Virus record (IMG/VR): IMGVR_UViG_3300025872_000352
Coordinates: 1 to 21,778 of that record
Length of the DNA: 21,778 nucleotides
Source of the DNA: a virus
Reading direction: 5' to 3' (one strand)
Shown here piece after piece: positions 10,179 to 15,760 of the stretch. How positions within the stretch are numbered: position 1 is the first letter of the stretch; the number at the start of each line of letters is the position of its first letter. The notes beneath the pieces are model-generated. The model worked only from the letters and a program-made list of their open reading frames with translations, did not search any database and was not told where the DNA came from. A program made the translations under genes and the position numbers.

Positions 10179-12701
<2,523 letters not shown>

Positions 12702-12722
12702 AGCTAGCGTGAGTTGAGGCTA

Positions 12723-12768
12723 AACCCCTAGGCTGGAGAGCATGACAACTCTCCACTGCCTAGGGGTT
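12723..12768 (+). promoter_or_regulatory. Start-codon hairpin of the glycosyltransferase gene
   Basis: A long inverted repeat folds around the start of the glycosyltransferase gene. The outer arms aacccctaggc (12723-12733) and gcctaggggtt (12758-12768) are perfect 11-bp complements. The inner arms tggagag (12734-12740) and ctctcca (12749-12755) are perfect 7-bp complements. A two-base bulge (ct) separates them on the 3' side, and the 8-nt loop catgacaa holds the ATG. The SD-like GGAGAG is inside the stem. The 3' half encodes residues 3-9 of the enzyme. No U-run follows, so it is not a standard terminator. The visible architecture predicts translational repression when folded; the trigger for opening is unknown. 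Confidence 0.75.
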
Positions 12769-13887
12769 CCTCATACCGTGACCCATCCCGACTACTCAGC
12801 GTGCGCATTCACTCAGAAAGTCTTGAAGTTCTTGGAGATGTTCAAGGACTCGAGCGAGTACCGCACGATCCACTATGGACATCCTGACTCCATTACCGCC
12901 GCTCACGAGCACGTCAACGTCACCTCTCGTGACATCCTCCAAGAGACCTATGGGGACTACGACTGGAGACGAAACCAGTTCAAACACTCCTCGCAAGACC
13001 TTGCTCACAAGGCGTTTAATCTCATCGCTGGAGAGGCTATCAAGCGACGGAAAAAGAAAGGCGACATCGTGCTCGCGTTCTGGGGCGGGACACAAGAGGC
13101 GACCCACATTGCCAACGCTGACAAAGACTTGATCGTCGTGGAGCCGGGCATCGGAAGTGGCCACGCCTTCGCGCCGTTTCGGTGCTACGAGTCTTATCCT
13201 CTCAGGTCAGCATTCGTGGGCACTGAGGGCGTTTCCTACTGCAACCCAAAGTGGTATTGGAGAGTCGTGCCGAACTACTTCGACATCCGCAACTTCGACC
13301 CGACGCAAGAGCGAGAGGACTACGCGCTGTTCATCGGCCGCCTCGGGACCAACAAAGGCTTGGACATTGCCATCGACGCCTGCAAGCGGATGGGGATCAG
13401 GCTCAAGGTGGCTGGCCAAGGAGGGCCCGAGGGCATCGGATTAAAGGAGTGGCCGGAGCACGTCGACTTTGTTGGATACGCTGGCATTGAGGAGCGGAAG
13501 GAGTTGATGGCCAAAGCTCAGTTCGGGTTTCTTTTGTCCACCTACTGGGAGCCGTTTGGCGGAACAGCAGTCGAGATGATGCTCTCGGGGTGCGTGCCGA
13601 TCTGTTCGGACATGGGAGCCATGACCGAATACATCGTGGATGGTGTCAACGGGTTCCGATGCTCGACGATGGGTGACATCCTGCGAGCCATCCGGATCGG
13701 CTACCGCATCGACCGCTCGAAGATGGTGGCATTTGCTCAGGCGAACTTCTCGCTCGATGCGGTGAGGCCGAAGTTCGAGCGAGCGTTTGCCGACTTCCGA
13801 GACGTGTTCAGCGGCGCGGGATGGTACGAGGATCACAACCGGCCTTTCACGGTCGGCTACGGGCTCGACTACTCGCCGCTCAGTTGA
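12742..13887 (+). CDS. Glycosyltransferase, GT4 family (GT-B fold)
   Basis: A 381-residue enzyme expected to transfer a sugar from an activated donor to an acceptor in the cytoplasm. The C-terminal half shows GT4 hallmarks: ALFIGRLGTNKGLDIAIDAC (about 195-214) and YWEPFGGTAVEMMLSGCVP (about 268-286), with the EX7E pair at E270 and E278. The N-terminus (HCLGVPHTVTHPDYSACAFT) fits a group of phage GT-B transferases. The ATG at 12742 is supported by GGAGAG one base upstream, but both lie in a strong hairpin. The gene directly follows two collagen-like fibres rich in Gly-X-Thr, so fibre glycosylation is the leading idea; host surface glycan modification is the alternative. Donor and acceptor are unknown. 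Confidence 0.88.
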   Translation: MTTLHCLGVPHTVTHPDYSACAFTQKVLKFLEMFKDSSEYRTIHYGHPDSITAAHEHVNVTSRDILQETYGDYDWRRNQFKHSSQDLAHKAFNLIAGEAIKRRKKKGDIVLAFWGGTQEATHIANADKDLIVVEPGIGSGHAFAPFRCYESYPLRSAFVGTEGVSYCNPKWYWRVVPNYFDIRNFDPTQEREDYALFIGRLGTNKGLDIAIDACKRMGIRLKVAGQGGPEGIGLKEWPEHVDFVGYAGIEERKELMAKAQFGFLLSTYWEPFGGTAVEMMLSGCVPICSDMGAMTEYIVDGVNGFRCSTMGDILRAIRIGYRIDRSKMVAFAQANFSLDAVRPKFERAFADFRDVFSGAGWYEDHNRPFTVGYGLDYSPLS

Positions 13888-14392: not shown

Positions 14393-14718
14393 ATCTCAAG
14401 GAGTACGGCATCGACATCGCGTTCCTGTGCGCTGGCCTTTTCGGGGCAGTCTTGACGACGGGCAAGAACGCTGCACGCAACCTCGGGAGCACCATCTCCT
14501 CACTCGTGGCCGGTGCCGCAGCTGCGAACTACCTGACACCTGTCGTGGTGCAGTTGGTCAAGGTTGAGGGGGAGCGCACGCAGTACGCCATCGCCTTCCT
14601 ACTCGGGTTCGTTGGTCTTCGAGCCGTCGAGTTCGCGAGCCGCAAACTGATCCCGCACTCCATCACAGACGAACACCATGAACCCGAACCTGCTCACCCT
14701 CGCAAACGGAGCCGCTAA
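14389..14718 (+). CDS. Small membrane protein of lysis cassette
   Basis: A 109-residue protein with predicted membrane segments near residues 8-24 (IAFLCAGLFGAVLTT), 34-55 (TISSLVAGAAAANYLTPVVVQL) and 65-82 (QYAIAFLLGFVGLRAVEF), and a hydrophilic His/Glu/Arg-rich tail. It follows the holin with ATGA overlap. The ATG at 14389 was preferred to an upstream in-frame start at 14272, which lies inside the holin gene. It may be a second holin, an antiholin or a pinholin-like partner. Family not assigned with confidence. Confidence 0.75.
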   Translation: MNLKEYGIDIAFLCAGLFGAVLTTGKNAARNLGSTISSLVAGAAAANYLTPVVVQLVKVEGERTQYAIAFLLGFVGLRAVEFASRKLIPHSITDEHHEPEPAHPRKRSR

Positions 14719-15067: not shown

Positions 15068-15158
15068 GGTGCATCAGCTGGTCAGCATCGGTGCCGCATT
15101 GGCAGCACTGGTCTATACGGTGCTGAAAATCGTCCAACTCTACCGAGACTTAAAATGA
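14985..15158 (+). CDS. Small single-pass membrane protein overlapping preceding gene
   Basis: A 57-residue protein with one or two hydrophobic stretches (LLVVPSVNLAALMLGL and VSIGAALAALVYTVLKIVQL) and a charged C-terminus (YRDLK). It starts 83 nt inside the previous gene in a different frame and overlaps the lysozyme start by ATGA, so it bridges the two. An upstream TTG at 14955 would add ten residues, but the ATG at 14985 gives a typical small holin-like length. No lipobox cysteine is present, so it is not an Rz1-type spanin. A holin or holin-regulator role is inferred from position. Confidence 0.62.
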   Translation: MNFDHSNPHDLLVVPSVNLAALMLGLTEVHQLVSIGAALAALVYTVLKIVQLYRDLK

Positions 15159-15760
15159 CCCTTTCAGACAAAGGCCGCAAACTCCTGCTCGACTACGAAG
15201 TCGGCGGTGGCGAACCGTATTACCGGAAATTTCTATCTCGGCCAACGTGGCCGGGGGAGCAATCAGGTGTGACGATTGGCGTCGGATTTGACCTCGGATA
15301 TAACTCCGAGAGTCAAGTTTCCGAGGCGTGGGGCACATTGTCCAACACCAGCCTCGAACTCTTGATGGGAGCAATCGGCATCCGTGGAGAGAGTGCTCGT
15401 TTGTGGTTGTCCTCAAGGCCAATGGTGCGCGACATCGAAGTCCCGTGGGAAAAGGCTCTGGACGTGTTCGAGAGGATCACCGTGCCGAGGTTCTACCTGC
15501 AACTTTTGAGGATCTACCCACAAGCGGAGACGCTACCGGAACCTGCTCGCGATGCACTGCTCTCGCTCGTGTTTAATCGCGGCACCGCATTGGCTGGAGA
15601 CCGACGGGCTGAGATGCTCGGGATCCAAAACGCTCTCCGCGATGGCCGCACCCACGACGTCCCGCAGCTGCTCCGCTCGATGAAACGACTCTGGCCAAAT
15701 ACCACAGGGCTCCAAAAGCGCAGAGACGCCGAGGCTGACCTGTTTGAGAGTGCGTTGTGA
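15155..15760 (+). CDS. Endolysin, pesticin/T4-type lysozyme
   Basis: A 201-residue muramidase-type endolysin that would cut peptidoglycan at the end of infection. The N-terminal region has a Glu-rich catalytic start (DYEVGGGEPYY, E15 or E20 as the acid), then GVTIGVGFDLGY at 38-49. T40 and D46 are six residues apart, the same spacing as Thr201 and Asp207 of the pesticin catalytic site. The C-terminal part is helical, with ARDALLSLVFNRGTAL and a conserved-looking LQKRRDAEADLF near the end. No signal peptide is visible, so it relies on the holins encoded upstream. It starts with ATGA overlap. Confidence 0.85.
   Translation: MTLSDKGRKLLLDYEVGGGEPYYRKFLSRPTWPGEQSGVTIGVGFDLGYNSESQVSEAWGTLSNTSLELLMGAIGIRGESARLWLSSRPMVRDIEVPWEKALDVFERITVPRFYLQLLRIYPQAETLPEPARDALLSLVFNRGTALAGDRRAEMLGIQNALRDGRTHDVPQLLRSMKRLWPNTTGLQKRRDAEADLFESAL

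Follow-up and report, generated by a model that had tools for sequence, protein, structure and literature searches.

The start codon of a glycosyltransferase (GT) gene in a viral contig is looped out of a long hairpin, of which the 5′ arm is intergenic and the 3′ arm is coding sequence. The structure is conserved and covaries among close relatives, is restricted to the GT start, and persists when the tail-fibre gene upstream is replaced. We propose, at a probability of about 0.55, that the hairpin is a cis-acting translational brake that holds GT synthesis low relative to that of the fibre.

The hairpin at the glycosyltransferase start

The source window, i.e., the whole stretch of DNA that was analysed, is a 21,778-base viral contig. 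Positions 12723–12768 of its + strand read AACCCCTAGGC TGGAGAG CATGACAA CTCTCCA CT GCCTAGGGGTT. The initial annotation described a hairpin here, and its anatomy and coordinates are correct: 11 bp, a 2-nt bulge, 7 bp, and an 8-nt loop that holds the ATG. The features of the locus are as follows:

10185–12701, + strand: open reading frame (838 aa) of a collagen-like tail fibre; 21 nt separate its end from the hairpin
12702–12722, + strand: spacer from the fibre stop to the hairpin, not conserved across fibre types
12715–12719, + strand: stem extension UGAGG, 5 bp with 12769–12773, with a 3-nt bulge between
12723–12733, + strand: outer 5′ arm, AACCCCTAGGC, 11 bp with 12758–12768
12734–12740, + strand: inner 5′ arm, TGGAGAG, with the SD-like GGAG, 7 bp with 12749–12755
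12735–12740, + strand: GGAGAG string in the inner stem
12741–12748, + strand: 8-nt loop, CATGACAA, with the GT start codon ATG at 12742–12744
12749–12755, + strand: inner 3′ arm, CTCTCCA, codons 3–5
12756–12757, + strand: 2-nt bulge (CT)
12758–12768, + strand: outer 3′ arm, GCCTAGGGGTT, codons 6–9
12769–12773, + strand: CCTCA, the 3′ half of the stem extension
12742–13887, + strand: GT, 381 aa (PHROG 3408 / Pfam Glycos_transf_1)

The RNA folding check that had been proposed bears the structure out. The 12680–12800 transcript folds at −48.9 kcal/mol (z −3.35), a value that none of 200 shuffles equalled, and the GT start has the most stable fold among the likely gene starts of the window (−39.7 kcal/mol). 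For L002, in which the locus is identical, the duplex between leader and coding sequence scored −41.1 versus −21.8 ± 3.7 for shuffled leaders, none of which (0/300) was as good. The 5′ arm had been called exactly complementary to codons 3–9; it does match them, except that the 2-nt bulge is unmatched. An Rfam 15 search of the hairpin gave only sub-threshold chance matches, none above the gathering score.

The start had also been considered unusual among the structural genes for its clear SD. Its hybridisation energy (−6.4) is more favourable than the values for most structural genes (−1.5 to −5.1). The first ORF, with its start at 30, has a better one (−9.4), and with just 3 nt between GGAG and the ATG the SD is not as strong as had been stated. 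Complementarity to CTCTCC may have produced the SD-like string incidentally. Elsewhere in the window, the starts at 14678, 16855, and 19137 lack an SD and follow C/A-rich leaders that are unstructured, with ACACC or AAACC ahead of the ATG; such leaders at several later genes suggest non-SD initiation in this phage.

The upstream fibre matches Pfam Collagen (7.8e-48), CBM_5_12 (1.6e-9; a carbohydrate-binding module), and a PHROG tail fiber protein. The GT is a group 1 glycosyltransferase that matches PHROG 3408 at full length (3.3e-100 over residues 4–363) as well as Glycos_transf_1 (2.6e-17). Its nearest named relatives, ~45% identical, occur in Synechococcus myophages, where they adjoin a collagen-repeat protein. 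No close relative of the GT was found in prokaryote genomes, so nothing links it to a prophage or a host; tape-measure and RecT gave best matches of <40% identity from mixed hosts, and a nucleotide search against phage records gave no match. It is the adjacency of the two genes that suggests modification of the fibre by the GT. For the next gene (PHROG 1544, unknown function) the most likely start is GTG 13904, 16 nt past the GT stop, and the stretch 15155–15760, with a weak sub-threshold Pfam match to a Pesticin/phage lysozyme-like domain, is a candidate endolysin.

Conservation and covariation in the glycosyltransferase clade

Five protein scans of viral contigs yielded 57 distinct GT leaders. 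We defined the clade as GTs with ≥83% protein identity to that of the window, which comprises 14 distinct leaders from 21 contigs and ~19 metagenomes, all of uncultured phages. The hairpin is kept in 14/14 of these leaders. Their leader–coding duplexes have z scores of −2.8 to −7.6 against shuffled leaders; 0/300 shuffled leaders were as good in 13 of the 14 and 2/300 in the remaining one, so that the pairing is indeed beyond chance. Relatives that keep the enzyme and lose the pairing, which the initial annotation had named as counterevidence, exist among GTs with <80% identity, where pairing is generally absent, but not within the clade.

The arms co-vary, as the comparison called for in the initial annotation shows: among the 14 leaders, 4 of the 18 pairs carry compensatory double changes. 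Pair 12736:12753 changes from G-C to A-U in L009 and L016, pair 12723:12768 from A-U to G-C in L016, pair 12726:12765 from C-G to G-C in L018, L020, and L021, and pair 12728:12763 from C-G to U-G and U-A. Only 4 of 500 shuffles reach four pairs changed on both sides. The covariation score, which draws on one clade with related rows counted repeatedly and few independent events, is 0.133 versus 0.081 ± 0.010 for shuffled alignments (reached by 0/500). Standard pairs fill 96% of cells in the 14-sequence alignment, as opposed to 93.1 ± 0.7 after shuffling and 32–51% in slid registers. Covariation beyond sequence conservation, as in conserved cis-regulatory RNAs generally, is thus present, on few independent events.

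The remaining variation is mixed. Coding-arm changes in the paired columns of the main group comprise two that are compensated (codons 4 and 9), one that gives a G-U pair (codon 7, L007), and one that breaks a pair (codon 8, L009), and there is variation at the unpaired bulge position in codon 5. L007, L009, L018, and L021 have G-U pairs, and some clade members (L009 and L017) have broken ones. L018–L021 retain the outer stem and have largely lost the SD-bearing inner stem. Synonymous constraint over codons 3–9 is weak (0.17 vs 0.32, with 41 of 362 seven-codon windows equally low) and is suggestive only. Judged from these alignments, the start-codon hairpin is real, conserved, and covarying.

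Matched arms might also have arisen by mutation, without function. In that case template switching would have produced the 5′ arm as an inverted copy of codons 3–9, and further rounds of it (quasi-palindrome correction) would keep the arms matched. The arm is the reverse complement of codons 3–9 save two bases, the weak synonymous constraint fits, and template switching can create and repair perfect stems in one event, thereby mimicking compensatory change (PMC8794818). An origin of the arm by this route is therefore plausible, and template switching is a serious rival on that point. As an explanation without function it appears quite improbable: the G-U pairs fit stepwise RNA-level selection better than copy-repair, an arm that blocked the GT start to no benefit would be expected to disappear, yet 0/14 leaders lack it, and the arm survives replacement of everything upstream. 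The G-U intermediates and the retention in 14/14 leaders argue, within a small sample, that selection would also be acting.

Fibre replacement and the fibre–glycosyltransferase junction

The fibre genes upstream fall into at least four unrelated C-terminal types (..GPAGG or ..GPAA, ..VRASQ, ..RIPYYE, and ..GATGTV). Gapless identity between fibre types is ~20–50% up to −24, 84–100% over the 5′ arm (−19 to −1), and mostly 82–97% in the GT. The hairpin persists to its edge despite the different fibre genes upstream. Because homology starts at the arm across fibre types, the arm is kept with the GT and not with the fibre. A covariance model run over 489 kb of clade and related loci found strong + strand copies at GT starts only. 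We discarded three other candidates. First, a 15-mer scan for the arm as a mobile or repeated element matched the GT start, and its seven other matches formed no hairpin and looked like chance. Second, an N-terminal extension of the GT through the arm was judged unlikely (an in-frame CTG is present in the main group and, by hand reading, absent from L018–L021). Third, a background scan suggested that relatives have another start hairpin downstream of the GT, but this came from mis-called internal ATGs.

That homology between phages starts at the hairpin edge would also be expected if the inverted repeat were a DNA-level exchange site for tail-fibre swaps at this junction, and L090 joins a different leader and first codons to another GT lineage. 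We regard such a role as highly improbable, since covariation alters the sequence while keeping the pairing, which disfavours homologous exchange, the repeat is found at the GT start only, and no recombinase tied to the hairpin was found.

It is doubtful, too, that the hairpin is primarily an intercistronic mRNA element, i.e., a stem that blocks 3′-to-5′ decay of the fibre mRNA, forms an RNase III site, or stalls polymerase, with the overlap of the GT start being secondary. The stem (18–23 bp) sits right behind a structural gene, its length is near the RNase III requirement, and terminator-like hairpins lie at the same place in many relatives. However, the stem is followed by CCTCATACC without a T run and is absent from our terminator scan; lacking a U-tract, it does not qualify as an intrinsic terminator. 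The spacer could accommodate an element that served the fibre only, yet half of this one is coding sequence. Moreover, the stem stays with the GT when the fibre changes, and cutting both strands would destroy the GT frame.

Outside the clade, about a dozen leaders (L024, L025, L028, L030, L141, L048, and L093–L097) have a strong hairpin (approximately −20 to −32 kcal/mol) that ends ≤16 nt from the ATG; several of these abutting hairpins are followed by T-rich sequence, and there is little room for a promoter. In all of them except L048, a terminator-like hairpin ends 5–12 nt before the GT ATG, which leaves so little promoter room that GT transcripts must arise by read-through or be leaderless. 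The intrinsic terminators ahead of PHROG 3408 GT genes in relatives (L024, L025, L030, and L093–L097) resemble the window's hairpin in being strong fibre–GT junction hairpins in the same gene order, but they end before the ATG, run into a T-rich stretch, and do not pair with the coding region. A terminator-like hairpin could achieve an equivalent step-down through transcription, and lowering of the GT relative to the fibre by differing means would be an attractive common theme.

Other GT leaders were of different kinds. L023, L026, L027, L032, and L082, from a quite different phage type (some contigs ~200 kb), have the GT start codon in a small conserved hairpin, GTATAGT..ACTATG; neither these stems nor the L051-type leader stem (7 bp, z −0.8) was significant by the duplex test. 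L043, L044, L106, L107, and L108 carry a different two-hairpin leader, CTAGCGTTCACGCTAG and then GGYAGTGTAG, which pairs with codons 4–7 (CTACAYTGYC). The duplex test places this type at the borderline, with z −3.5 and −3.3 for two members and weaker values for the rest, and its hairpins show G-U type variation only, with no double changes. L090 (2441–2560) is a mosaic in which an L106/L108-type leader and first 7 codons are joined to an L112/L039-type GT, which places the crossover just inside the coding start.

Predicted cost to translation and possible modes of release

Freeing positions −20 to +15 costs 19.8–35.2 kcal/mol in the clade (median 27.6), as compared with a median of 8.9 and a 95th percentile of 20.5 for other gene starts in these contigs (n = 292). 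GT leaders outside the clade have a median of 14.1 versus the 8.9 of other genes (p 2e-4, uncorrected for relatedness). The AUG is unpaired in the clade (P ~0.9–1.0). The SD region has an unpaired probability of 0.02–0.12 in the main group and of 0.22–0.38 in L018, L020, and L021, in which it is partly freed. With an opening cost of ~20–35 set against 8.9, default silencing is the natural prediction, and the known dependence of initiation on local stability would make the repression strong.

We envisage that, on a polycistronic late mRNA, the intergenic 5′ arm would fold back onto codons 3–9, burying the ribosome-binding region and leaving just the AUG in a tight loop. GT output would then be low, and perhaps conditional, with translation of the upstream fibre unhindered. 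We infer that the hairpin would form in the cell, lower translation, and be selected for low GT dosage. Low dosage is not a family-wide rule, because in L138 and L139 (77–78% identity) the fibre stop touches the GT start or lies 3 nt from it. Leaders in which the upstream stop overlaps, touches, or lies 3 nt from the GT start are those of L138, L139, L150, L154, and L110. The MS2 coat initiator hairpin offers a comparison, in that its start codon lies in the loop and its stability sets the translation rate; it is much weaker, belongs to an RNA phage, and has no homology to the GT hairpin.

The initial annotation went further and predicted a switch that would silence translation until unfolded and so time fibre modification. 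The conserved, covarying structure and the high opening cost agree with silencing, but we found no evidence of a switch, and its timing is unsupported. First, a promoter scan from −90 to −5 in 11 leaders found no −10-like site (5 of 6) or T4-late site (TATAAATA), although the phage's own promoter type may differ; the window itself has no promoter-like site in or before the 5′ arm. Upstream of the arm the members' sequences are unrelated, which rules out a shared promoter in that region. Second, neither arm has a conserved 8–9 nt alternative partner within 400 nt. Third, the fibre stop lies 34–45 nt before the ATG, i.e., 15–26 nt before the main stem, and in the clade it neither overlaps nor comes within a few nt of the start or the structure. 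A ribosome terminating 15–26 nt short of the stem is not expected to melt it, which makes coupling unlikely.

The best-known phage hairpins that hide a start are those of T4 and its relatives, in which an internal promoter provides release. The T4 e hairpin cuts lysozyme synthesis ~100-fold on long transcripts (PMC3014915), and in both e and I-TevI transcription from a late promoter inside the 5′ arm gives short mRNAs that can be translated (PMC3014915, PMC2988022). By analogy, the GT could be silenced on long transcripts and the block later bypassed by arm-internal transcripts, cleavage, or a trans-acting protein or RNA. The anatomy is that of the RBS-sequestering hairpins of T4 e, soc, 49, I-TevI, and Aeh1 mobE (PMC3014915, PMC2988022), and so strong a hairpin makes sense if it can be relieved. 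In the GT hairpin as in that class (also segB), a stable cis-acting stem of leader and early codons contains the SD and/or AUG. The GT hairpin differs in the placement of its AUG in the loop, in having virion-associated or moron genes on both sides, and in belonging to a phage that is not T4-like. The T4 class has, as one of its defining features, a late promoter in the 5′ arm, whereas none was detected in or just before that of the GT hairpin, as far as tested; with no conserved alternative partner and a fibre stop too far away for coupling, we consider a T4-type timed switch unlikely. We assign a low probability to a default-off RNA switch, in which a phage or host factor (protein, antisense RNA, or nuclease) would open the hairpin at a given stage. 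Fibre glycosylation would then occur only late or be confined to a fraction of the progeny, and the hairpin would accompany the GT regardless of the fibre.

The split-SD structures of T4 genes 25 and 38 are likewise RNA structures at the start of a phage structural gene that are conserved in a close clade only (PMC3014915), but they bring a distant SD close and raise translation. Because the SD of the GT is inside the stem and only 3 nt from the AUG, enhancement by that route is not possible. Under the translational brake that we favour, a covarying start hairpin that lacks such a promoter, is tied to a fibre-adjacent GT, and survives fibre swaps would imply that RNA structure at module boundaries sets the dose of virion-modifying enzymes.
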